Below the pieces are notes generated by a model. The model saw only the letters and a list, made by a program, of their open reading frames with translations. It was not told the DNA's origin and ran no database searches. From Nitratidesulfovibrio sp. SRB-5 (lineage in GTDB: Bacteria > Desulfobacterota > Desulfovibrionia > Desulfovibrionales > Desulfovibrionaceae): a stretch of 64,000 nt of DNA. Below, piece after piece: positions 9,868 through 60,972 of this stretch. The DNA lies in assembly GCF_019931275.1 (NCBI RefSeq), contig NZ_JAIOTY010000002.1:826131-890130 (forward strand), given 5' to 3'. Made by a program: the position numbers and the translations under genes. Position 1 is the stretch's first letter; each line of letters begins with the position of its first letter.

Positions 9868-10074
9868 TGGTGCTTGCGACAAGAGGAGGATGCGATTTCC
9901 CCGGAAGGCCCGCAGCTGGACCGGGGATGCCGAGGAATCTCGACCCTCGGGGGGCGCGGTCCGCTCCATCGGGTGGGGCAGCGCGTCAACGAAGACCCGT
10001 ACAGGAGGTGTGGCGACAAGCTGCGGAGAATATCGAAAGGCCCCCTACCATTTCCACAACATCCTGATGAGGCC

Positions 10075-10209
10075 ATGGCGCCCAAGGGCGTTACCCCCGG
10101 CGACATATACAGCTCCATCGTCCCCATGGTACTCCTCATGCGCATAGGTCTGGTGCCGGTCATGGTCTTCCCGTGCATCGCCATGTTCCTGCCCCGGGTG
10201 TTCCTGTAA
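10075..10209 (+). pseudogene. C-terminal remnant of a TRAP transporter large permease (DctM-like)
   Basis: The last 44 codons read KGVTPGDIYSSIVPMVLLM, then a hydrophobic segment with PVMVFPCIAMFLP. That is the usual end of DctM subunits (V-x-DIYRG-VPF, helix, FP-x4-WLP). Nothing matching the rest of the permease is found upstream before yeiH. It is probably what is left after deletion of a transporter formerly next to eutBC. Confidence 0.5.
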
Positions 10210-10221
10210 AGCGAGGCTCCC

Positions 10222-11580
10222 ATGAACGTTCACAGTCCGCTGCGTGAACTTCTGGCCAAGGCGTCCCCCCTGCGTTCGGGGGATGTCCTGGCCGGGGTGG
10301 CCGCAGCCAGCGACGAAGAGCGCGTGTGCGCCCAGATGCTGTTGGCCGACGTGCCGCTGAAGCGCTTTCTCGACGAGGCGGTGATCCCCTACGAGGACGA
10401 CGAGATCACCCGGCTTATCATGGACAGCCACGACGCAGCGGCCTTTGCCCCAGTACGCTCGTATACCGTGGGCCAGTTCCGCGACTGGCTGCTTACCGAC
10501 GCGGCGAACCATGCCAGCCTGGCCGCGCTTGCCCCCGGCCTGACGCCGGAAATGGTGGCGGCGGCCAGCAAGCTGATGCGCCTGCAGGACCTGGTGCTGG
10601 TGGCCTCCAGGTGCCGGGTGGTCACCCGGTTCCGCAACACCATCGGGCTGCCGGGCCACTTTTCTGCCCGCCTGCAACCCAATCACCCCACCGACGACGC
10701 GCGCGGCATCCTGGCCTCCACCATCGACGGGCTGTACTACGGCTCGGGCGATGCAGTCATCGGCATCAACCCGGCTTCGGACAGCCTGGATAACATCGCC
10801 CGGCTGATGCACCTGCTGGACGAACTCATCGCCCGGTACGAGATACCCACCCAAGGCTGCGTGCTCACCCACGTGACCAGCGCCATGGAGCTCATTCGGC
10901 GGGGCGCGCCGCTGGACCTGTGCTTCCAGTCCATCGCCGGGACGGAAAAGGCCAACGCCAGCTTCGGCATCAGCCTGGGCCTGCTGGACGAGGCGTGGCA
11001 GGCCACGCTGGAATTGCAGCGCGGCACGCTGGGCGACAACGTGATGTACTTCGAGACGGGGCAGGGCAGCGCGCTTTCGGCCAACGCCCATCACGGCGTG
11101 GACCAGCAGACCGTGGAATGCCGGGCCTATGCCGTGGCGCGCCGCTACCGCCCGCTGCTGGTGAACACGGTGGTGGGGTTCATCGGGCCGGAATACCTGT
11201 ACAACGGCAAGCAGATCATCCGGGCCGGGCTGGAGGACCACTGCTGCGGCAAGTTGCTGGGCCTGCCCATGGGGGTGGACATCTGCTACACCAACCACGC
11301 CGACGCGGACCAGGACGACATGGACGCGCTGCTGACCCTGCTGGGCACGGCAGGCTGCAATTTCATCATGGGCGTGCCGGGCGCGGACGACATCATGCTC
11401 AACTACCAGTCCACCTCGTTTCACGACGCTGCCTACCTGCGCAAGCTGCTGGGCAGGCGTCCCGCCCCGGAATTCGAGGCCTGGCTGGAACGCATGGGCA
11501 TCCACGACCGGGACGGCAACCTGCTGCCCCCCGGCGGCGCCCTGCTGGGGCTTGAACAGCGCGTGCGGCAGGACGCCTGA
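10222..11580 (+). CDS. eutB: Ethanolamine ammonia-lyase large subunit EutB
   Basis: A 452-residue catalytic subunit, the usual full length. With EutC and adenosylcobalamin it converts ethanolamine to acetaldehyde and ammonia. Recognisable blocks include GLPGHFSARLQPNHPTDD, FQSIAGTEKANASFG and YFETGQGSALSANAHHGVDQ, all typical of EutB. It starts 12 bp after the transporter remnant and is followed by eutC after 11 bp. No reactivase (EutA), aldehyde dehydrogenase or microcompartment shell gene is present in the window, so this looks like a minimal ethanolamine module supplying ammonia and acetaldehyde. Confidence 0.97.
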   Translation: MNVHSPLRELLAKASPLRSGDVLAGVAAASDEERVCAQMLLADVPLKRFLDEAVIPYEDDEITRLIMDSHDAAAFAPVRSYTVGQFRDWLLTDAANHASLAALAPGLTPEMVAAASKLMRLQDLVLVASRCRVVTRFRNTIGLPGHFSARLQPNHPTDDARGILASTIDGLYYGSGDAVIGINPASDSLDNIARLMHLLDELIARYEIPTQGCVLTHVTSAMELIRRGAPLDLCFQSIAGTEKANASFGISLGLLDEAWQATLELQRGTLGDNVMYFETGQGSALSANAHHGVDQQTVECRAYAVARRYRPLLVNTVVGFIGPEYLYNGKQIIRAGLEDHCCGKLLGLPMGVDICYTNHADADQDDMDALLTLLGTAGCNFIMGVPGADDIMLNYQSTSFHDAAYLRKLLGRRPAPEFEAWLERMGIHDRDGNLLPPGGALLGLEQRVRQDA

Positions 11581-21158: not shown

Positions 21159-22385
21159 CTACCGGCGGGGGAACAGCCGGGCGGCCTCGGGGGTCGGGTC
21201 CTCCGGGCAGGCGGTGTGCCGGGCCATGGCCCGCGCCTCGTCGATCATCAGCGAGAGCAGCCGGGTGAAGCGTATCGGGCTTTCCGCCGCTTCCCACAGG
21301 AAAAACGCGAACGAACCGGGGATGGGGTTCACCTCGTTCAGCCACACCTCGTCGCGGGTGGCGTCGTACATGAAGTCCATGCGCGGCGCGCCGGTGCCGC
21401 CAAAGGCCGCGTAGGTGCGCACCGCAAAGTCGCGGATGCGGCCTTCCAGGCTTTCGGGAAGGTCGGGGTTGATCTCTCGCGTCAGCGAAAGCATGCCCGC
21501 GCTGCCGGAATCGCCCGCGCTCTTGGTGCCGCCCATTCCGCCGGTCTTGCTGCCGGTCTTTCCGCCCGACGAAAGGTACTTCTGGCGAAAGTCCAGCAGT
21601 TCGCTGTCGCGCTTGGGCCGCTCGATGGCCGAGGTGGCGTGCCCCTCGCCGTCGCGCCGCACCGAAATGTTGTACTCCACGCAGCCGTCCAGATACGGCT
21701 CCACGATGGCCACGGTGTCGTTCCTGAACAGGCCGGGCAGCACCGCTTCGATGTCCTCGATGGAATCCACCTTGGCCACGCCGATGCTGCTGCCAAGGTG
21801 CGCGGGCTTCAGGCAGCCGGGCAGGGTGATGCCCGCCAGCGCGGCCTCGATGTCGGCGCGCGGGGGCAGCAGGCCGCCCACGGGCTTGCGCAGCACCGCG
21901 CAGGGCAACATGGGAATGCCGGTGCCGGCCAGGGCCTGCTTGGTGGCCGCCTTGTCCATGAAGATGGCGGAAGCCAGCACGCGCATGCCGGTGTAGGGAA
22001 TGCCAACGGCCTCGAACAGGCCCTGCATGTCGCCGTCTTCGCCGTAGGGACCGTGGAAGGCGGGGATGGCCACGTCGAAGGGAATGCGCCTGGGCTTGCC
22101 GAACAGCCTGGAGGTCTGCTCCACCAGCATGCCGCCCTTGCCGGGGGCGATTTCCAGCGACACGGCGGGCAGGCCGTCGGCCTCGCGGGCGGGGATGTAG
22201 GTGGCGCGGTCCAGCAGTTTTTCGCCGGTGCGCCAGACGCCGCAGCGGTCCACGTAGACGGGCACGGGTTCGTACTGCGCGGCGTCCAGGGCCTGGATGA
22301 CCTGCAAGCCGGTGACGATGCTGACGTCATGCTCGGGCGAACGCCCGCCGAAAAAGACCGCGACGCGGATTTTGCCGTTGGACAT
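21159..22385 (-). CDS. ddl: D-alanine--D-alanine ligase
   Basis: A 408-residue ATP-grasp enzyme starting MSNGKIRVAVFFGGRSPEHDVS, with AGGAAG upstream of the ATG. Family marks: HGPYGEDGDMQGLFEAVGIPYTG, MDKAATKQALAGTGIP, LKPAHLGSSIGVAKVDS and MDFMYDATRDEVWLNEVNPIPG. It joins two D-alanines for peptidoglycan precursors. An unusual Gly/Ser/Thr/Lys-rich insert of about 30 residues sits near 320 (GGKTGSKTGGMGGTKSAGD), and the protein is longer than the usual 310-370. It is oriented with the hydrolase and Mur ligase, which suggests an accessory cell-wall pathway separate from the main dcw cluster. Confidence 0.9.
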   Translation of the reverse strand: MSNGKIRVAVFFGGRSPEHDVSIVTGLQVIQALDAAQYEPVPVYVDRCGVWRTGEKLLDRATYIPAREADGLPAVSLEIAPGKGGMLVEQTSRLFGKPRRIPFDVAIPAFHGPYGEDGDMQGLFEAVGIPYTGMRVLASAIFMDKAATKQALAGTGIPMLPCAVLRKPVGGLLPPRADIEAALAGITLPGCLKPAHLGSSIGVAKVDSIEDIEAVLPGLFRNDTVAIVEPYLDGCVEYNISVRRDGEGHATSAIERPKRDSELLDFRQKYLSSGGKTGSKTGGMGGTKSAGDSGSAGMLSLTREINPDLPESLEGRIRDFAVRTYAAFGGTGAPRMDFMYDATRDEVWLNEVNPIPGSFAFFLWEAAESPIRFTRLLSLMIDEARAMARHTACPEDPTPEAARLFPRR

Positions 22386-22959
22386 GATGGCTTCCTGTAT
22401 GGTTTGCGGGCGCGGCGCGGGGCCGTGCGGCCCGCCATGTGGCGGTGGCGGGGTGACCTGCCGCGCGGCGCTGGCCTTCCGGAATGCGGGAGACGGCGCG
22501 CGGCGGGTGCCAGCCTGTGGCACCCTTGCCCCATGGCGCCGTGGGTGTCAATTGGCAGGTGGGCGGCGCGGGGCGCCCGGACGGGTGCGGCGGAACGGAC
22601 GGAAGTGCCCGGCGCGGGGGCGGTGCCGTCATGGTTGTAGCGCCGGGGCGTCCCCTGCACAAGGGCCGGTTGGGGCCGGGTGCAGACCGGACGTGGACCG
22701 GACGTGGACCGGACGTGGACCGGACGCGGGCCGGGCTGGCGACGGGGCGGGTGACGGGGCTGGTGACGGGGCGGGTGACGGATGCTTGCCGGAGTGGGCC
22801 GGACGGGTGGAGACCACGTGGCGGTCACGCCGAGGGCACGGGGCCGCTTGCCGCGCCGGGGCGGCTGTGCCATGAACGGGACTACGGGCGTGCGGGCAGG
22901 GCTCGTCCTTTCCGGCCTGCGGGCCGCCATCCGGGGTTGCGCCACGGGATGGAAACGAC
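22386..22959. other. Divergent intergenic region rich in short tandem repeats
   Basis: 575 bp between divergent ddl and the molybdopterin fusion gene. It holds two tandem tracts: 22685-22730, about four copies of an 11-12-bp unit (CCGGACGTGGA), and 22738-22781, about three copies of a 13-bp unit (GGGCGGGTGACGG type). Both promoters must lie here, but no convincing -35/-10 pair is visible. Confidence 0.5.
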
Positions 22960-25779
22960 ATGCGCAGCACATCGGCCCATGCTCCCCATGGGGCAGAAGC
23001 GGACTCCGGCCACTCTTCCGGCCACTCTTCCGGCCACGCGGCAGGCCACGCCTGCATCGAACAACGCATCATCACCAGTTGCACCCGCGACTGCCCCAAC
23101 AGCTGCGGGCTTGTGGCCACCGTGCGAGATGGCCGCCTGGTGCGGCTGGCGGGCGACCCGGACCACCCGCTGACGCGCGGCAAGGCCTGCGTCAAGGCGC
23201 AGCGCTACGTGAAGCGGGTGTACAGCCCGGAGCGCATCACGCACCCGCTGCTGCGCGACCACCGCCACCAGCCCTGGCGCCGCGCCACCTGGGACGAGGC
23301 GCTGGACCGCATCGCCGCGCGCATGACCACCATCCGCGACGAATCCGGCACGGAAGCCATCCTGTACTATCAGGGCTATGGCGAACGCACCGCGCTGAAG
23401 CTGCTGAACCGCTACTTCTTCAACCTGTTCGGCGGGGTGACCACCCTGCGCGGCTCGTTGTGCGGCGGGGCGGGGCAGGGGGCGCAGAACCTCGACTTCG
23501 GCCAGCGCGTCTCGCACGACCCGCTGGACCACTGCAACAGCAACTCGCTCATCCTGTGGGGCCGCAACCCGGCGTCCACCCAGATCAGTCTGGTGCCCAT
23601 CCTGCGCGGCATCCGCAAGCGGGGGGGCACGGTGGTGCTGGTGGACCCGGTCCGCAACCGTTCGGCCCCGCTGGCCGACCGGCACATCGCCCCGCGCGCG
23701 GGCACCGACGCCTTTCTGGCCATGGCCGTGACCAAACTCATTGTGCGCGCGGGGGGCGAGGACCGTGAATTCATGGCGCGCCACGCCGAGGGCGCGGCGG
23801 AATACCTGCGCATACTTGACCGGTACACGGTGGACGACCTGTGCGCCCGCTGCGGCGTGGACGTGGCCGACGCGGAATTTCTGGCGGACATGATGCTGCG
23901 CCAGCGGCCCACGTCCATCCTGCTGGGCTGGGGCATGCACCGGCACGAGGCGGCGCACCTGTCCATCCGCGCCGTGGATGCGCTGGGGGCCATCAGCGGC
24001 AACATCGGCGTGCCGGGCGGCGGCGTGAGCCAGGGCTTCGAGGAATACGGCCCCTACGACCAGCAGTACTGGGGCGACGGGTTGAACCCGCCCCGGCGCA
24101 CCCTGTTGCTGCCCGAGATCGGCCGCGAGATTCTGGACGCGCGCGACCCGGAAATCCGCATGCTCATGGTCACGGCGGGCAACCCGGCCTGCATGGCGGC
24201 CGATGCCGGGGCCGTTGCCCGCGCCTTCCGCACGGCGGAATTCGTGGTCTATTCCGGCCACTTCATGGACGACACGGCGGACCTTGCCCACGTCTTCCTG
24301 CCCGCCACCACCTTTCTGGAAGAAGACGACGCCATGGCCAGCTACGGCCACAACTACGTGGGGCCGGTGAACAGGGCCATCGAGCCGGTGGGCGAGTGCC
24401 GCTCGGAATTCATGATGTTCCACGACCTTGCGGCGCGCTTTCCCTTTGCTGACCGCTTCCGGCGCGGCGTGGACGAATGGCTGCGCGACCTGTGCGCGCC
24501 CATGTGGGAACAGGACTGCACGCCGGAGCGGCTGCGCGCCGGGGCCTTCCGGCTGGATGCGCCCATGGTGCCCTACGCGGACAGGACCTTTCCAACGCCG
24601 TCCGGCAGGTTCCGGTTCATGGCCGACTTCGACCCGGCCGGGCTCGGCGCGGTGGACCCCGACTATCCCTACCGCCTGCTGACCATCGCCCCGCACGGGT
24701 ACATCTGCTCCGAACGCACCATGGCCGAGCACGACGCCCTGACCGAGGTGGCGCTGGCCACGGAAGAGGCCGCACGGCTGGGCCTGCCCGACGGCGCGGT
24801 GGTGCGGGTGGAAAGCAGCGTGGGCGCGGTGAAGGCCATCCTGCGCACCGCAGACGGCCAGCGTCCGGACATCCTGGTGGCCGAGCGGGGCGGCTGGAAC
24901 AAGGCCGGGCACGGGCTGAACCTGCTCACCCGCGCCCTGTCCAGCCGGGTGGGGCGCGGCACGCCGTACTACGAAACCTGCGTGCGGGTAACCCCGTGGC
25001 CCAACGACGGCGTCACCGGGCTGCGCGTGTTGGTGGTGCGGCCCGGCAACGACGCCCCCGGCGGCAGCTTCTGCAAGGAACTGGCACGCTGCGGCGCGGC
25101 GCTGACCACCCTGCGGCCGGGGCGCGGAGACGCGCTGCCGTCCCGCGACGAGGCCCTGTCCGGGTACGACGCGCTGGTGGTGTTGGGCGGGGCGCAGCAC
25201 CGCCGGGACAACGAAGGTTCGCCCCATTTCCCGCACCTGATGGACCTGCTGCGCGCCTTCGGCGCGGCGGGCAGGCCGGTGGCGGGGATCTGCCTGGGGG
25301 CGCAGCTGCTGGCCCGCGCCCACGGCGGCAGACCGTGGGCCATGGGCGCGCTGGAGTTCGGCTTCGTGCCCCTTGCCCCCACCGAGGCGGGCCTGACTGA
25401 TTCCGTGCTGGGGCCCGCATTGTCCGGCGCGTTGCCCCTGCCGCACCTGATGTCCTTCCATGAAGACACCTTCGACCTGCCGCAAGGGGCCACCCTGCTG
25501 GTGCAGGGCGCCCGGTGCCGCAACCAGTGCTTTCGCGTGGGCAACGCCTCGTACGGTTTCCAGTTCCATCTGGAAGTGGATGCCGCCATCGTGCAGGACT
25601 GGGTGGACATGTTCCGCAAGGGGCGCATGAGCGAATACGCCGCCTGCCGCGAGAAGTTCGACGACGCGTACTTCGACGAACTGGCCCGCGACATGCCCCT
25701 GCTGGCGGAAGCCTCGGAGGCGTTCTGCCGCAAGGTGGCGGCGGCGTGGCTGGGGCTTGCCCGGCAGCGGGGGGATTGA
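22960..25779 (+). CDS. Molybdopterin oxidoreductase fused to a class I glutamine amidotransferase domain
   Basis: A 939-residue protein. A His/Ser/Gly-rich start (repeats of SSGH) is followed by the [4Fe-4S] motif CTRDCPNSC with Cys77 as the fourth ligand, then the molybdopterin domains (YYQGYGERTALKLLN, GSLCGGAGQG, LWGRNPASTQ, GNIGVPGGGVSQG) and the dinucleotide-binding domain (APHGYICSERTMAEHD), about residues 35-690. The last 230 residues are a GATase-1 fold with nucleophile Cys in AGICLGAQLLARAHGG and the His/Glu of GFQFHLEVD. No Tat signal is seen, so it is probably cytoplasmic. No electron-transfer subunit is adjacent. The electron acceptor or substrate and the reason for the amidotransferase are unknown. 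Confidence 0.88.
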   Translation: MRSTSAHAPHGAEADSGHSSGHSSGHAAGHACIEQRIITSCTRDCPNSCGLVATVRDGRLVRLAGDPDHPLTRGKACVKAQRYVKRVYSPERITHPLLRDHRHQPWRRATWDEALDRIAARMTTIRDESGTEAILYYQGYGERTALKLLNRYFFNLFGGVTTLRGSLCGGAGQGAQNLDFGQRVSHDPLDHCNSNSLILWGRNPASTQISLVPILRGIRKRGGTVVLVDPVRNRSAPLADRHIAPRAGTDAFLAMAVTKLIVRAGGEDREFMARHAEGAAEYLRILDRYTVDDLCARCGVDVADAEFLADMMLRQRPTSILLGWGMHRHEAAHLSIRAVDALGAISGNIGVPGGGVSQGFEEYGPYDQQYWGDGLNPPRRTLLLPEIGREILDARDPEIRMLMVTAGNPACMAADAGAVARAFRTAEFVVYSGHFMDDTADLAHVFLPATTFLEEDDAMASYGHNYVGPVNRAIEPVGECRSEFMMFHDLAARFPFADRFRRGVDEWLRDLCAPMWEQDCTPERLRAGAFRLDAPMVPYADRTFPTPSGRFRFMADFDPAGLGAVDPDYPYRLLTIAPHGYICSERTMAEHDALTEVALATEEAARLGLPDGAVVRVESSVGAVKAILRTADGQRPDILVAERGGWNKAGHGLNLLTRALSSRVGRGTPYYETCVRVTPWPNDGVTGLRVLVVRPGNDAPGGSFCKELARCGAALTTLRPGRGDALPSRDEALSGYDALVVLGGAQHRRDNEGSPHFPHLMDLLRAFGAAGRPVAGICLGAQLLARAHGGRPWAMGALEFGFVPLAPTEAGLTDSVLGPALSGALPLPHLMSFHEDTFDLPQGATLLVQGARCRNQCFRVGNASYGFQFHLEVDAAIVQDWVDMFRKGRMSEYAACREKFDDAYFDELARDMPLLAEASEAFCRKVAAAWLGLARQRGD

Positions 25780-25992
25780 ACCCGCCCGCAGGCACCGCCT
25801 GCGCATGCAGGCGAAACTTTGGCCCCGCGCCGGGTTTTTCCGTGCGCGCCAGCGGCGGACGACAGTGGCTTTGGCGCAGTCCCGGGCCTGTGGCACTGAT
25901 GGACATGGCGGCGACTTTGTTCCATGATGCAAAATGGCGGGTGCCGCTGTTACGGTTGCGGCATCCGGCCACGGACTCGTCATGGGGGTGCC

Positions 25993-27042
25993 ATGGTACG
26001 CCGTTTCCGTTTCATCCTGCTGTTGGCGGCGCTGCTGCCGATCATGCTTGCCGGGGGCGCGGCGTTTTCGCAGGCCGCCCCGGCGCGCACTGCGTTGACG
26101 CGGGTGTGCGTGGTGCAGAGTTACCATTCAGACTATATATGGTGTCGGAACATCAATGAAGGCATCCGCGACGCATTGCGGGACGCGGGGGTCGTCATCG
26201 AGGTGTTCTATCTGGACGCCAAGCGCAATCCTTCGCCCGACCATCTGCGCGCCGCCGCGCGGAGCATTGCCGCCCGCATCGCGGAACTGGAACCCAGGGT
26301 GGTGATAACCGTGGACGATGCGGCACAGCTGTACCTGGCCGTGCCGTACCTGATGGGCAAGGGCGTGGACGGCCGAGGGCCGCAGGTGGTGTTCTGCGGG
26401 GTCAACGCCCCGTTGGGCAGCTATGGGTATCCGGCATCCGACGTTACCGGCGTGCGCGAACGCTGGCACTTTCGCGAAGGGTTCGACCTGCTGCGCAAGA
26501 TAGACCCCCGCATCAGGAACGTGGCGGTGCTGCTGGATGATTCGGAATCCGCCGGGTACGTGCTGGCCGACATGCGCGACGACATGACCCGCAACGGTCC
26601 CTTTGCCCTGCAACTGTCCGACGTGGCCATGGTGCGCACCTTTCAGGAATGGAAACGGGCGGTGCTTTCCGCTCAGGAGCATGCCGATGCCCTGGCGCTG
26701 GGCCTGTACCATTCGCTGGTGGATGCCTCCACAGGCAAGACGGTGCCCGCCGAAACCGTGCGCGACTGGAACCTTTCCGTGTTGCGCAAGCCCACGCTGG
26801 GCTTCAGCGATGCCACGCGCGACCATGGCCACCTGTGCGGCATACTGGAGTCTGCCCACGAGCAGGGCCTGCTGGCGGGCCGCATGGTGCGCCATCTGGT
26901 GCTGCGCGGGGGGCGGGCGGGCGACCTGCCCGTGGCCATCAACCAGCAGGGTCTGGTGTTCGTCAACCTGAAGACGGCGGAGCGTCTGGGGCTGGTCATT
27001 CCCTACGAGATCATCAAGGCGGCGGATCTGGTCATCCAATGA
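25993..27042 (+). CDS. ABC-type substrate-binding protein, sensor partner of the next kinase
   Basis: A 349-residue exported protein starting MVRRFRFILLLAALLPIML, a signal peptide with likely cleavage after AAFSQA. The mature part is an ABC_sub_bind/TrpX-like fold (VCVVQSYHSDYIWCRNINEG, VVFCGVNAPLGSYG, KIDPRIRNVAVLLDDSESAG). The ATG at 25993 is preferred over upstream in-frame starts because it is followed directly by the signal peptide. Its stop overlaps the kinase start (ATGA). No permease is present, so it is likely a soluble ligand receptor for the kinase. The fold matches the domain fused into the 12.5-15.8 kb hybrid kinase. Confidence 0.88.
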   Translation: MVRRFRFILLLAALLPIMLAGGAAFSQAAPARTALTRVCVVQSYHSDYIWCRNINEGIRDALRDAGVVIEVFYLDAKRNPSPDHLRAAARSIAARIAELEPRVVITVDDAAQLYLAVPYLMGKGVDGRGPQVVFCGVNAPLGSYGYPASDVTGVRERWHFREGFDLLRKIDPRIRNVAVLLDDSESAGYVLADMRDDMTRNGPFALQLSDVAMVRTFQEWKRAVLSAQEHADALALGLYHSLVDASTGKTVPAETVRDWNLSVLRKPTLGFSDATRDHGHLCGILESAHEQGLLAGRMVRHLVLRGGRAGDLPVAINQQGLVFVNLKTAERLGLVIPYEIIKAADLVIQ

Positions 27043-29429
27043 ATTCCCCCGATCAGCAAAGCCAGCCAAACCAGCCAGGCCATTCGGACACGCCCGCCAG
27101 GCCCGTCAGGCCCGTCAGGCCAGACCGGCCAGACCGGCCAGACCGGCCAGAGCGGCCAGATCGGGCAGACGGGTCAGCCCCGCACGCGTCGGGCAGCCCC
27201 CGGATATGGGGCATGCCCGAGCGGTTCATCGCCACGGCGCTCACTGCGGTGTTCATCGGGGTGCTGGTCATTTCCGGCGTGGCCTATCGCTATACCCGCG
27301 GCGCGGCAGAGGAAATGGCCGGTGCGCAGATGGTGCAGGCGCTGGAGTTGCTGGACCGCGACGTATCCGGGCGGGTGCGCGACATCGCGCGGCGTACTGT
27401 CCTTGTCAGCCAGGAAGAGGTGCTGCAACTGGCGCTGGAGGATTCGTACCTGGGGCGCTCCGCGCGGGTGTCGGCCCAGCGCAGGTTGGATGCCTTCGTG
27501 CAGGTTGGCGGGTTCAGCCATCTGCTGCTGGCCGATCGGGCAGGAATGGTGGTGTTGGCCACCCTGCCACTGGACGGGGACCGGATGAATATTTCCGGTC
27601 GCGATACGTTCCGGTCGGCCATGCGGGGTGTCTCTGCCCTGGAACTGGTGGAGAAATCGCGGCTTACCGGGGGGGCGGTGCTGGTCACCGCAGAACCCGT
27701 GCGAGGTTCCGATGGCGAGGTGGCGGGCATTGTGGCGGCCATTACCGCCATGGATGTCTTTGCGCGGGACATTCTGGACAGCGTGCATCTGGGCGCGGCG
27801 GGCGGTGCGTACATCCTGAGCGGTACGGGGCGGCTGCTGGCACGCCCCGCGTGGGCCGGGCCCGAGGATTTTTCGCCCGACGCACGACTGCTGGAAATGC
27901 TGCTCGCGGGTGACGGCGCGGTGCCGGGCGCCAACCTGGCCCCCCAGGCGGTGCGGAGGGCGGGACGGCAACACTTGATCACGTTCCGGCGCAACGCGGC
28001 CACCGACTGGTTTCTGGTGGTCGAGGCGGACGAAGGGGACATCCTGGCCCCGGCGCGCCGTCTGGCTGCGGCCAGCGGGGGCATATCGCTGGTCACGCTG
28101 GCCTGCGTGGCGCTGGCGCTGGGCGCGCTGCAACGGGCCATGGCCCGGTTGCGCCGGTCCGAGGACCGTTTTTCCAGCCTGTTCCGCCTTTCGCCGGACA
28201 GCGTTCTGCTGGTGGCGCCGGAGAGCGGCGTGGTGGAAGACGTCAACGATGCCGCTGCCGCCGCGTTCGGCCTGTCTCGCCAGGCCGTGGCGGGCCGCAG
28301 GGTGGGGGATCTGGGCATTTTTCCCGACGATTCCGTGCGGCAAGGCGTGTGGGCGCGGCTGAAGGACGAAGGAACCATCCGCAACGTGGAAGTGGCGGGG
28401 CGCGCCCCGGATGAGGGGGACGGGCCAGATGGGGCAGGCGGGCCAGATGGGGCAGGCGGGCGGGAAGTGTTCCATTCCCTCTCCGGCCAGGCCATGGACA
28501 TCGGCGGCAGATCCCTGTTCATGCTGGTGCTGCGCGACGTGACCGAACTGAAGAAGATGCAGGCGGTGATGATCCAGACCGAGAAGATGATTTCGGTGGG
28601 GGGCATTGCGGCGGGCATCGCCCACGAGATCAACAACCCTCTCGGCGCCATCATGCAGGCTTCGCAGAACATGCAGCAGCGCATGAACACCGTGCTGCCC
28701 GCCAATATCGCCGCGGCGCAGGAGGTGGGGCTGGACCTTGATGCCCTGCAACGCTACCTGCGGATACGCAAGGTCGACCGGTTCATCGAGGACATCCGGG
28801 CGGCGGGCATTCGTGCCGCGTCCATCATCCGGCACATGCTGGACTTCAGCCGTGGCAGCGCCGCACGCAGCACCGCCTGCGACCTGCGGGGGCTGATGGA
28901 CCGCGCCGTGAACCTTGCGGCCAGCGACTACGACCTGAAGAAGAACTACGATTTCAGAAAGATCCGCATAGACATTCACGTGGCGGATAACCTGCCCCCG
29001 GTGCCCTGCGTGGAGACGGAGGTGGAACAGGTGCTGTTGAATCTGCTGCGCAACGCGGCGCAGGCACTGGCGGGCATGGACCCGCGCCGCGACGACCCGC
29101 GCATCGTGCTGCGCGCCTTTGCGCTGGAGGGGTGGCTGCGCCTGGAGGTGGAGGACAACGGCCCCGGCATGACGCCGGAGGTGCAGCGCCGCATCTTCGA
29201 GCCGTTCTATACCACCAAGCCGCCCGGGGTGGGCACGGGGCTTGGCCTGTCGGTGTCGTACTTCATCATTACCAAGGGGCACGAGGGGCGCATGGACGTG
29301 GAGTCGCGCCCTGGCGAGGGCAGCGTGTTCCGCGTCGACCTGCCCTTGGACGGGCTGTCCACGGGGGCAGGGCCTTCCCGGCGTGAAGACGGCGGGGATG
29401 CCCCTCCGGACGATACAGCCCTGTCCTGA
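27039..29429 (+). CDS. Sensor histidine kinase with Cache and PAS domains and an Arg/Pro repeat head
   Basis: A 796-residue kinase. The first 45 residues carry an unusual Arg-Pro-Asp repeat encoded by 9-bp DNA repeats. Then come a membrane span (IATALTAVFIGVLVISGVAY), a double-Cache-like periplasmic sensor (about 75-340), a second span, a PAS domain (FSSLFRLSPDSVLLVAPES), HisKA with H-box GIAAGIAHEINNPLGAI, and HATPase (LLRNAAQAL, DNGPGMTPEV, GTGLGLSVSYFI). No receiver domain or regulator gene is adjacent, so its output partner is elsewhere. A well-formed terminator follows. Confidence 0.92.
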   Translation: MNSPDQQSQPNQPGHSDTPARPVRPVRPDRPDRPDRPERPDRADGSAPHASGSPRIWGMPERFIATALTAVFIGVLVISGVAYRYTRGAAEEMAGAQMVQALELLDRDVSGRVRDIARRTVLVSQEEVLQLALEDSYLGRSARVSAQRRLDAFVQVGGFSHLLLADRAGMVVLATLPLDGDRMNISGRDTFRSAMRGVSALELVEKSRLTGGAVLVTAEPVRGSDGEVAGIVAAITAMDVFARDILDSVHLGAAGGAYILSGTGRLLARPAWAGPEDFSPDARLLEMLLAGDGAVPGANLAPQAVRRAGRQHLITFRRNAATDWFLVVEADEGDILAPARRLAAASGGISLVTLACVALALGALQRAMARLRRSEDRFSSLFRLSPDSVLLVAPESGVVEDVNDAAAAAFGLSRQAVAGRRVGDLGIFPDDSVRQGVWARLKDEGTIRNVEVAGRAPDEGDGPDGAGGPDGAGGREVFHSLSGQAMDIGGRSLFMLVLRDVTELKKMQAVMIQTEKMISVGGIAAGIAHEINNPLGAIMQASQNMQQRMNTVLPANIAAAQEVGLDLDALQRYLRIRKVDRFIEDIRAAGIRAASIIRHMLDFSRGSAARSTACDLRGLMDRAVNLAASDYDLKKNYDFRKIRIDIHVADNLPPVPCVETEVEQVLLNLLRNAAQALAGMDPRRDDPRIVLRAFALEGWLRLEVEDNGPGMTPEVQRRIFEPFYTTKPPGVGTGLGLSVSYFIITKGHEGRMDVESRPGEGSVFRVDLPLDGLSTGAGPSRREDGGDAPPDDTALS

Positions 29430-57871: not shown

Positions 57872-57945
57872 ACGCGGTGCGCCACCGGCGCATCCGCATC
57901 ACGGCGCCCTGCGGCAACGGTGCAACCGGTACGCAAGGAGGCATG

Positions 57946-60900
57946 ATGACTGTCAATCGCAGGCAATTTCTCAAGCTGAGCGCGGGCGCCACCCTGGCAA
58001 GCGCGTTCGGCGGGCTGGGGATCAGCCTCGCGCCCTCGGTGGCGCGGGCCGAACTCCAGAAGCTTCAGTGGGCAAAGCAGACCACCTCGGTTTGCTGCTA
58101 CTGCGCGGTGGGCTGCGGGCTCATCGTCCATACCGCCAAGAATGGCGAGGGCCGCGCCGTCAACGTGGAAGGCGACCCGGACCATCCGATCAACGAAGGT
58201 TCGCTGTGCCCCAAGGGCGCGTCCATCTTCCAGCTGGGCGAAAATGACGCCCGCTCGCCCAAGCCCCTGTACCGCGCGCCCAACAGCGGCGAGTGGAAGG
58301 AAGTGGAATGGGACTGGGCGCTGACCGAAATCGCCAAGCGCGTTAAGAAGACCCGCGACGAATCCTTCCAGCTGGCCAATGCCGCCGGTGAAAAGGTGAA
58401 CCGGACGGAAGCCATCGCCTCCTTCGGCTCCGCCGCCATGGACAACGAGGAATGCTGGGCCTACCAGGTCATCCTCAGAAGCCTCGGCCTGGTGTTCATC
58501 GAACACCAGGCGCGGATCTGACACAGCCCCACTGTACCGGCTCTGGCAGAGTCGTTCGGTCGCGGTGCTATGACGAATCACTGGAACGATCTTGCGAACA
58601 GTGATTGTGTGTTGATCATGGGCAGCAACGCTGCCGAAAACCACCCCATTTCCTTCAAGTGGGTGCTGCGCGCGCAGGACAAGGGCGCCACGCTTATCCA
58701 CGTGGACCCGCGCTTCACGCGCACTTCCGCCAAGTGTGACATCTACGCCCCCATCCGGTCGGGCGCGGACATCCCCTTCCTTGGCGGCCTCATCAAGTAC
58801 ATCCTCGAGAACAAGCTGTATTTCGAGGAGTACGTGCGCGAGTACACCAACGCCTCGGTCATCGTGGGCGAAAAGTTCTCGTTCAAGGACGGTCTGTTCA
58901 GCGGCTACGACGCGGACAAGCGCAAGTACGACAAGTCGCAGTGGGCCTTCGAACTTGACGAGAACGGCGTGCCCAGGCGCGACCCGTCGCTGAAGCACCC
59001 CCGGTGCGTCATCAACCTGCTGAAGAAGCACTACGAACGCTACACCGTGGACAAGGTGGCCGACATCACCGGCACGCCCAAGGACCTGATCCTGAAGGTC
59101 TACAAGGCCTACGCGGCCACGGGCAAGCCGGACAAGGCGGGCACCATCATGTACGCCATGGGCTGGACGCAGCACTCCGTGGGCGTGCAGAACATCCGCG
59201 CCATGTGCATGATCCAGCTTCTGCTGGGCAACATCGGCGTGGCGGGCGGCGGCGTCAACGCGCTGCGCGGCGAATCCAACGTGCAGGGCTCCACCGACCA
59301 GGGCCTCCTGGCCCACATCTGGCCCGCCTACAACCCCGCGCCCAACAGCAAGCAGACCACGCTCGACGCCTACAATGCGGCCACCCCGCAGTCCAAGGAT
59401 CCCATGAGCGTGAACTGGTGGCAGAACCGGCCCAAGTACATGGCCAGCTACCTGAAGGCGCTGTACCCCGACCTTGCCCCGGCGGACGCCTACGACATCA
59501 TGCCCCGGCTTGATGCGTCCAAGCCCGCCACCTACTACTTCTGGCTGAACATCTTCGACAAGATGGACAAGGGCGACGTGAAGGGCTGCTTCGCGTGGGG
59601 CATGAACCCCGCCTGCGGCGGCGCCAACGCCAACAAGAACCGGCGTGCCCTGGGCAAGCTGGACTGGCTGGTGAACGTCAACATCTTCGAGAACGAAACC
59701 TCTTCGTTCTGGAAGGGCCCGGGCATGAAGCCGGAGGAAATCGGCACGGAAGTGTTCTTCCTGCCGTGCGCCGTGTCCATCGAAAAGGAAGGCTCGGTCG
59801 CCAACTCCGGCCGCTGGATGCAGTGGCGCTATCGCGGGCCGAAGCCATGGGGCCAGACCAAGCCCGACGGCGACATCATGCTGGAAATGATGCACAAGAT
59901 CCGCGACCTGTACGCCAAGGAAGGTGGCGTGCACGCCGACCCCATCCTGAAGCTGAACATCAAGGACTGGGAAGAACACAACGAGTTCTCCCCGGCCAAG
60001 ACCGCCAAGCTGATGAACGGCTACTTCCTGAAGGACACGGAAGTGGGCGGCAAGCAATTCAAGGCCGGGCAGCAGGTGCCCTCGTTCGCCTTCCTGACGG
60101 CGGACGGCTCCACCTGTTCCGGCAACTGGCTGCATGCCGGGTCGTTCACCGATGCGGGCAACATGATGGCCCGCCGCGACACCGCGCAGACGCCGGAACA
60201 GGCGCGCATCGGCCTGTTCCCCAACTGGTCGTTCTGCTGGCCGGTGAACCGGCGCATCATCTACAACCGCGCTTCCGTGGACAAGACCGGCAAGCCGTGG
60301 AACCCGTCCAAGGCCGTCATCGAATGGAAGGACGGCAAGTGGGTGGGCGACGTGGTTGACGGCGGCGGCGACCCCGGCACCAAGCACCCGTTCATCATGC
60401 AGACGCACGGTTTCGGCGCGCTGTACGGCCCCGGGCGCGAGGAAGGCCCCTTCCCCGAGCACTACGAACCGCTGGAGTGCCCGGTTTCCAAGAACCCGTT
60501 CTCGAAGCAGCTGCACAACCCGGTGGCCTTCAAGATCGAGGGCGAAAAGGCGGCGGTGTGCGATCCGAAGTTCCCCTTCATCGGCACCACCTACCGCGTC
60601 ACCGAACACTGGCAGACCGGCCTGATGACCCGCCGTTGCGCCTGGCTGGTGGAAGCGGAGCCCGAGATCTTCGCAGAAGTCAGCAAGGAACTGGCCAAGC
60701 TGCGCGGCATCAAGAACGGCGACCGGGTCAAGGTCTCCAGCCTGCGTGGCTCGCTGGAGGCGGTGGCCATCGTCACCGAGCGCATCAAGCCCTACAAGGT
60801 CATGGGTGCGGAAATCCACATGGTGGGCCTGCCCTGGCATTACGGCTGGATGGTGCCCCGGAACGGCGGCGATACGGCCAACCTGCTCACGCCGTCTGCG

Positions 60901-60972
60901 GGCGACCCGAACACCGGCATCCCCGAGACCAAGGCGTTCATGGTCGATATCCGCAAGGTGGGAGGTAAGTAG
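57946..60972 (+). CDS. fdhA: Formate dehydrogenase catalytic subunit FdhA, selenocysteine-containing
   Basis: 1008 residues read through an in-frame UGA at 58519-58521 as selenocysteine 192 (HQARI-Sec-HSPTVPAL); the same frame continues to 60972. It starts at 57946 (57943 possible) behind AAGGAGG. A Tat signal (NRRQFLKLSAGATLASAF) exports it to the periplasm. Cys residues VCCYCAVGC and SLCPKG bind a [4Fe-4S] cluster. Molybdopterin domains follow (NSDCVLIMGSNAAENHP, HVDPRFTRTSAKCD, GWTQHSVGVQNIRAMCM, LLGNIGVAGGGVNALRGE). It oxidises formate to CO2 with a Mo- or W-bis-MGD centre and passes electrons to FdhB and periplasmic cytochromes c3. It needs FdhE/FdhD/MoaA/MobA encoded at 40-44 kb. Confidence 0.97.
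58519..58560 (+). promoter_or_regulatory. Bacterial SECIS element directly after the UGA
   Basis: Downstream of the UGA the mRNA can form a hairpin with apical stem GGCTCT / AGAGTC (58539-58544 and 58548-58553), a small G-rich loop, and lower ACCG/CGGT pairing. The distance of about 18 bases from UGA to the apical stem suits SelB-dependent decoding. Confidence 0.75.

Follow-up and report, generated by a model that had tools for sequence, protein, structure and literature searches.

Why should a molybdenum-type oxidoreductase carry a glutamine amidotransferase domain at its C-terminal end? The question is raised by an open reading frame in Nitratidesulfovibrio sp. SRB-5, found in a 64,000-nucleotide stretch of DNA (contig NZ_JAIOTY010000002.1, positions 826,131–890,130) that is termed here the window. 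The frame, at window positions 22960–25779 on the plus strand, encodes 939 amino acids (aa): an Fe4S4/molybdopterin oxidoreductase followed by a class I glutamine amidotransferase (GATase). Related genomes point to an answer. In several of them the fusion gene is part of an operon with a glutamine synthetase-like ligase, and the explanation cautiously favored here is that the fusion protein is the oxidizing and de-glutamylating enzyme of an oxygen-free gamma-glutamylation pathway. In the species of the window the other pathway genes are gone, and the fusion is a retained orphan.

The fusion open reading frame

The fusion is encoded in one uninterrupted frame, as the first-pass annotation of this DNA had stated. 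GC content by codon position is 0.71/0.51/0.91, the pattern of a coding frame; a 1081-aa frame on the minus strand over the same DNA is taken for the usual high-GC shadow. The start codon is as listed, and conserved protein sequence begins at about residue 34. Four Pfam domains score above their gathering thresholds: Molybdop_Fe4S4 (aa positions 38–89), Molybdopterin (92–492), Molydop_binding (593–671) and GATase class I (728–874). The Fe4S4, molybdopterin and dinucleotide-binding domains (residues 38–671, positions 23071–24972; PF04879, PF00384 and PF01568) are the domain set of the dimethyl sulfoxide (DMSO) reductase, or MopB, superfamily. The score of the GATase domain with PF00117 is 33.5 bits (cut-off 22.8).

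All four Fe4S4 cysteines of the MopB type are present in the alignment (Cys41, Cys45, Cys49 and Cys77; positions 23080–23190). Cys168, in the motif RGSLCGG (positions 23461–23463), is identical in all 38 other aligned sequences and is a candidate ligand of the metal, molybdenum (Mo) or tungsten (W). In a phmmer alignment with formate dehydrogenase H (1aa6) it falls three residues before the selenocysteine. The fusion scores 206 bits with the formate dehydrogenase alpha model TIGR01591, below the cut-off of 666.

The GATase domain (residues 687–939, positions 25018–25776) is delimited by Pfam, by a predicted model and by structural matches. Its predicted nucleophile is Cys778 in GICLG (25291–25293), and His870 and Glu872 in FQFHLE (25567–25575) complete the class I triad by alignment; the motifs are intact, as had been noted from the sequence. 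An AlphaFold model of the whole fusion is poor (predicted local distance difference test score, pLDDT, 62.8; predicted template modeling score, pTM, 0.42; matches in the PDB at about 14–23 Å root mean square deviation, rmsd), and therefore the relative placement of the two active sites is not judged.

No twin-arginine translocation (Tat) motif is seen by eye at the N-terminus, in accordance with the first-pass annotation. PADLOC gives no defense-system match, and a role in defense was rejected on this basis. A paralogous 937-aa open frame elsewhere in the genome (C1:282791) is not a second fusion, as it has an N-terminal leader and no GATase domain.

Recurrence and origin of the fusion

The MopB and GATase domains occur together in all eight genomes of the genus, that of the window included. 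Across the order 24 of 199 genomes, which represent several genera and three families, have the pair. The searches covered the order, with at most four candidates scored per genome; other phyla were reached through a plasmid collection only. In G579, of the same genus (genomes are given G numbers, and sequence stretches L numbers), the gene lies across two short contigs with the domain junction within one of them, and in G040 it is interrupted by contig ends. The closest named records are from Nitratidesulfovibrio and Desulfovibrio sp. A2 (88%–90% identity), in a non-exhaustive scan that used six short peptides as queries.

The two halves also exist as neighboring genes, a possibility raised earlier. 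In NaphS2 MopB (L047, 7989–9938) ends one base before the start of the GATase gene (9940–10707), and loss of a stop codon is a possible origin of the fusion. This arrangement is what might be expected if the window gene were a chance read-through between unrelated neighbors, or a misassembly. The probability of such an artefact is close to nil, however: the fusion recurs across genera and families, the linkers are in frame and alike in the 20 fused rows where a motif search located the linker, and the sequence is under purifying selection (below). Assembly error and read-through are thus rejected, and because both domains recur in the genus, the order and named records, there is no assembly join. 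No frameshift or misassembly is present at the junction, and the other objection that had been foreseen fails as well, since not all homologs lack the second domain.

Seven other genomes of the order (G129 and six from one or two genera of another family) have a MopB with 69%–72% identity and no GATase domain. More distant MopBs (about 47%–53% identity) are also unfused. A 53-row MopB tree, weakly resolved at some deep forks, explains the distribution of fused (or split) genes with three changes, a count that fits one gain and two losses. In one genus (L081, L082, L085 and L088) an unfused MopB of about 50% identity adjoins genes that resemble nifD/nifK by eye.

An operon in related genomes

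The gene order in relatives is: ligase, C45 protein, binding protein, two permeases, two ATPases, radical SAM protein, fusion. This was mapped at 17 loci with fused or split MopB/GATase genes. The families assigned by hidden Markov models (HMMs) are C45_proenzyme (220 bits, cut-off 85), SBP_bac_1, BPD_transp_1 (twice), ABC_tran (twice) and Radical_SAM. The operon is complete in 13 genomes of the order (G015, G036, G048, G049, G068, G088, G093, G094, G132, G143, G183, G194 and G198); in several of these the ligase was located on a separate stretch of sequence, and its presence was confirmed in each of the 13. NaphS2 has every operon gene; its importer genes are divergently oriented, and MopB and GATase are encoded separately. 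Stretches L041 and L043 display the genes from C45 through the fusion, the ligase position being beyond the stretch, and in L042 the radical SAM gene alone is visible before the contig edge. The periplasmic binding protein is well conserved, with 80%–88% identity between the Desulfovibrio relatives and NaphS2 and Rhizobium.

The ligase (E-values up to 1e-120) is present in 13 of the 199 genomes, each of which also belongs to the 24 that carry the fusion (Fisher p = 3e-14, relatedness ignored). Apart from weak ATPase matches, no operon genes are seen at 20 loci with unfused MopB (L069–L088). Of 17 genomes searched in full, only G068, G132 and G143 have the binding protein and C45; two genomes with unfused MopB, G129 and G024, have neither, nor a ligase above 37% identity. 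No account of the operon was found in the open-license literature.

In the window's genus, the operons of G132 and G143 contain an additional GATase gene that stands alone, flanked by the C45 and binding protein genes; its product shares 39%–41% identity with a stand-alone GATase of Rhizobium and 33% with the fused domain.

The ligase and gamma-glutamylation

In an HMMER alignment with solved glutamine synthetases, the NaphS2 ligase has a Phe opposite the Glu of the ..GYEAP.. motif, which we take to be the ammonium-binding Glu327 of the Salmonella enzyme. A wider alignment shows Phe at this position in all seven operon ligases examined (14 are known), Cys in the G410 relative, Tyr in a Rhizobium protein and in E. 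coli PuuA, and Trp in IpuC. The glutamine synthetase of the window's species keeps the Glu. With the ammonium Glu replaced, the operon ligase is not expected to be an ordinary glutamine synthetase. It shares the lack of this residue with PuuA and IpuC, and an organic amine is thus its expected acceptor of glutamate. A ligase of this predicted type beside a GATase is found in the 13 operon-bearing relatives, all with the fusion. It is absent from the window's own genome, where the best match (34% identity) is a glutamine synthetase with the Glu.

A ligase, a GATase and an oxidoreductase form the known gamma-glutamylation trio of aniline and putrescine metabolism. The putrescine pathway of E. 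coli runs through gamma-glutamylation (Puu genes). The aniline and 1-naphthylamine systems, according to the excerpted sections of PMC11335346, each comprise an oxidoreductase, a GATase-like hydrolase and a glutamine synthetase-like ligase; the GATase-like protein of the aniline system reportedly undoes the ligation, and conversion is described there as not requiring NpaA2. The fused domain could therefore serve either for product release or as a safety valve. The earlier statement that the two activities are not linked in known pathways does not hold in the light of these systems and of the ipuC cluster.

Other ligase-like proteins were noted. That of G035 (37% identity, Phe at the key site) was set aside, as its cluster resembles N-methylglutamate synthase, read here as a different pathway. 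A phage search with the ligase was uninformative (30%–32% identity among the five matches listed of 16). On a Thermomicrobium plasmid (L142, 8158–13344) a related glutamine synthetase-like gene lies near a tungsten-type aldehyde ferredoxin oxidoreductase and a RidA protein; this cluster is perhaps another metal-dependent variant.

The proposed pathway

The following scheme is suggested for the operon-bearing relatives. An ATP-binding cassette (ABC) importer with its own binding protein would bring in an amide or amine, from which the C45 (Ntn-type) hydrolase/acyltransferase would probably take off an acyl group. Glutamate would be attached via its gamma-carboxyl to the released amine by the glutamine synthetase-like ligase. 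A redox change in the resulting gamma-glutamyl amide would be brought about by the Mo-type enzyme, perhaps together with the radical SAM protein, and the GATase domain of the fusion would cut the gamma-glutamyl bond via its Cys-His-Glu triad. This cleavage may either free the oxidized product, as with PuuD, or reverse excess glutamylation, as reported for AtdA2. The scheme draws on the gene order and co-occurrence of the operon, the Phe of its ligases, the intact triad of its GATases, the resemblance of the GATase model to gamma-glutamyl hydrolases, the second GATase gene of G132 and G143, the Rhizobium cluster (below) and the known trios. Gene content, co-occurrence, residues and the predicted fold of the GATase domain are thus shown, and from them the reactions, their order and the substrate are inferred. 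The first-pass annotation had proposed either a redox step linked to ammonia or glutamine chemistry or a hydrolase domain put to a new use, and the operon points to something close to this.

A more specific statement, that sulfate reducers oxidize a gamma-glutamyl amide on a Mo (or W) enzyme and remove the glutamate with the C-terminal domain of the same polypeptide, is plausible but is put forward with greater reserve. If true, it would be the anaerobic equivalent of pathways that use a dioxygenase or P450, with a substrate class not known for Mo enzymes. It would give a likely function to an uncharacterized branch of molybdopterin enzymes, and would show how anaerobes could attack amines that aerobes treat by glutamylation and oxygenases. 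A single protein would then allow the redox chemistry and the removal of the glutamyl group to be studied together. The set of ten genes (nine where fused) is named here, and the periplasmic binding protein offers a route to the substrate.

Evidence against the pathway and other explanations

Several observations weigh against the proposed pathway and are set out in this section, together with the two explanations on which they bear. The ligase matches the HMMs of type III and type I glutamine synthetase and of gamma-glutamylputrescine synthetase, all below the equivalog cut-offs. The GATase domain gives no match to the PuuD family (NF008471) at E-values up to 1e-5 (E. coli PuuD scores 574 bits). 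With the PRK07053 glutamine amidotransferase model (NF005458) it scores 118 bits, under the cut-off of 250.

Modeled alone, the GATase domain gives a pLDDT of 86.7 and a pTM of 0.88. The best VIA-align match of this model is 3m3p (Z = 28.3, rmsd 2.6 over 239 residues). Other matches are DnfC (Z = 27.8), SMU.1228c (27.3), TM1158 (26.4), MsGATase (25.4), gamma-glutamyl peptidase 1 (23.6), PuuD (19.4) and GMP synthase (about 19). The predicted structure thus resembles GATases and gamma-glutamyl hydrolases alike, and the shared fold does not indicate a function. DnfC works in a redox nitrogen pathway and is reported to hydrolyze glutamine and glutamate gamma-hydroxamate, as described in the available part of PMC11440038. 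Likeness to DnfC supports an ammonia donor as much as it does a gamma-glutamyl hydrolase.

The C-terminal domain, whose fold and triad are those of a class I GATase, could then be a true amidotransferase, which hydrolyzes glutamine and passes the ammonia to the Mo enzyme or to a partner reaction in the manner of glutamine-dependent synthetases. This appears improbable, as a Pfam scan shows no ATP-grasp or other activating synthetase domain in the fusion and the operon supplies its own ligase with the ammonium residue replaced. In addition, we know of no Mo enzyme that aminates with ammonia.

A further difficulty for the gamma-glutamylation pathway is G410. This genome has the ligase (55% identity), C45 (52%), radical SAM protein (40%) and MopB (45%), and no GATase within the 20 kb examined, so that a GATase is not essential for this gene set. 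In G410 the radical SAM and MopB genes are separated by two genes that resemble, by eye, dynamin-type GTPases (L139, 2912–6746, minus strand).

The fusion is also retained without the operon. At least 12 genomes, including that of the window, have the fusion and no binding protein or C45 (G000, G122, G083, G577, G578, G076, G020, G010, G035, G110, G184 and G188), and none of these has a ligase above 37% identity. The enzyme therefore has some use beyond the operon, and the operon does not explain what the orphan fusion does in the window's species.

The state of the triad differs between the two groups. It is intact in all 17 operon-associated GATases and in 10 of 12 operon-less fusions checked. 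Two operon-less fusions have a broken triad: that of G110, in which Arg replaces Cys and the Glu is missing, and that of G188, in which Ser replaces Cys. In the operon-less G184 the triad is intact, but an internal segment beyond the HxE motif is deleted. The seven genomes whose MopB lost the GATase domain yielded no ligase. Among 35 tree rows, 16 have the operon and an intact GATase, none the operon and a GATase that is not intact, 10 an intact GATase and no operon, and 9 neither; Fisher p is 0.0015, uncorrected for relatedness. Given relatedness, the link is not significant (three independent pairs, none of them contrary). The 35 rows are those of the 53-row tree after exclusion of 13 distant unfused rows, G410, the paralogue, and G048, G040 and Roe453, whose operon state was then undefined; G048 later proved to be operon-bearing.

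Substitution rates were compared over 21 species pairs of the genus. The ratio of nonsynonymous to synonymous rates (dN/dS) is 0.09–0.29 for MopB and 0.17–0.47 for the GATase domain (0.17–0.24 and 0.30–0.47 in pairs with the window), and is higher for GATase in 20 pairs and equal in one. Both domains are thus under purifying selection, with GATase the less constrained. Since both are constrained, the orphan is used for something.

These data bear on another explanation, in which the GATase of operon-less genomes, among them the window's species, would be retained as a passenger or structural domain through its covalent link to a Mo enzyme of general function. The loss of the domain in G129 and the six other operon-less close relatives, the broken triads and shortened domain described above, and the higher GATase dN/dS are what a passenger would display. 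The triad is nevertheless intact in most operon-less fusions and the GATase dN/dS is well under 1, and this explanation is considered rather unlikely, less so than a true amidotransferase. The gamma-glutamylation pathway remains the favored reading for the operon-bearing relatives.

The window's copy and its neighbors

No ligase, binding protein, C45 or radical SAM gene is found in the window's own genome (the permeases and ATPases were not part of the search). For radical SAM there are only weak matches, of 30%–35% identity over less than 100 residues, and the best candidate for a relic upstream of the fusion (E-value = 0.006, wrong direction) was not convincing.

The N-terminus of the orphan copy begins MRST and contains a tandem GHSSGHSSGHAAGH repeat. 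These first 33 residues (positions 22960–23057) are a non-conserved extension outside the conserved protein. DNA similarity to the operon-bearing G132 and G143 starts at position 23058, inside the annotated frame, and the operon-less G122, G083 and G577 share sequence with the window further upstream. On this comparison the operon was probably lost in the window's lineage through a deletion ending at 23058, leaving the odd N-terminus. However, on the MopB tree the operon-less G122 groups with the operon-bearing G143 (100/89), so that recombination or repeated events are possible as well as a single deletion.

The upstream neighbor is a D-Ala-D-Ala ligase (21159–22523, minus strand), which is outside the system. 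Downstream are an ABC_sub_bind protein (25924–27042, plus strand) and a dCache/PAS histidine kinase (26649–29429, plus strand, start uncertain), assigned by domain scan and DNA comparison. Thus no electron-transfer gene lies among the flanking genes, as the first-pass annotation had recorded. DNA similarity over 25924–29429 extends to G132 and G083; the ABC_sub_bind part has no DNA match in the examined stretches of G122, G143 and G577. The ABC_sub_bind protein and the kinase may sense a pathway ligand.

Elsewhere in the window, a formate dehydrogenase alpha subunit is encoded at positions 57916–60972 (plus strand). It has a Tat-like leader, and residue 202 of the stretch read corresponds to an in-frame TGA (RIUHSP). 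It is probably a selenoprotein, to judge from this codon, and a plain list of open reading frames splits the gene. Just after the formate dehydrogenase genes, a MobB domain is joined to a putative Fe-S cluster domain, PF04060 (61985–62767, plus strand).

Comparison with known systems

The domain pair itself has been listed before. A fusion of COG0518 with the DMSO reductase family is in Table 4 of new fusions in a 2018 paper (PMC6147048), where the portion available gives no function, organism or gene context; this entry also runs counter to the view that the activities are not linked. The stand-alone proteins DnfC, 3m3p, TM1158 and gamma-glutamyl peptidase 1 are alike in fold over the whole domain (Z = 23–28), but are separate proteins, none joined to a Mo enzyme in the entries examined. 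In Desulfatiglans anilini, anaerobic aniline degradation proceeds by other enzymes, according to the part of PMC7500099 available.

The E. coli Puu system (PuuA, PuuB, PuuC and PuuD) likewise has a ligase with the ammonium Glu replaced, oxidation steps and a gamma-glutamyl hydrolase of GATase fold. Unlike the fusion, PuuB and PuuC are of other enzyme classes, and PuuD is of another GATase branch (BLASTP gives only an 18-residue match, E-value = 0.22). The ipuC cluster of Paenarthrobacter aurescens TC1 (pTC2) also combines an amine ligase, a GATase gene and oxidoreductases; these are annotated, however, as P450 and ferredoxin, short-chain dehydrogenase and others, and the GATase is PuuD-like.

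A plasmid of Rhizobium sp. ACO-34A (CP021374; L140, 7951–19906) has the same importer, a stand-alone GATase and a glutamine synthetase-like protein. Identities with the operon are 79%–80% for the binding protein and permeases, about 57%–62% for the ATPases, 30%–35% for the GATase and 43% for the glutamine synthetase-like protein. The cluster differs in having no MopB, radical SAM or C45 protein, and instead an amidase-signature protein, a Fer2 ferredoxin, serine hydroxymethyltransferase (SHMT), a flavin reductase and an AidB-like protein. It may be that the same substrate is treated there by other redox enzymes. The Rhizobium neighborhood gave no decisive clue to the substrate; the aerobic pathway of this cluster could reveal it. 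Related importers (about 41% identity) occur in Phaeobacter and Alisedimentitalea, with no GATase or ligase named in the stretch examined.

The aniline (AtdA1–A5) and 1-naphthylamine (NpaA1–A5) systems, in the account given by the excerpts of PMC11335346, resemble the operon in having a ligase, a class I GATase-like hydrolase and an oxidoreductase that acts on a gamma-glutamyl amide. The likeness is by description. In the aniline system of these excerpts the oxidoreductase is an O2-requiring Rieske dioxygenase and the GATase is a separate gene. No Rieske dioxygenase was found in the fusion or among the scanned operon proteins; here, in contrast, the Mo-type enzyme carries the GATase domain, and C45, radical SAM and an ABC importer are added. 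The operon and its Mo-type oxidoreductase are new elements relative to the known gamma-glutamylation trios.

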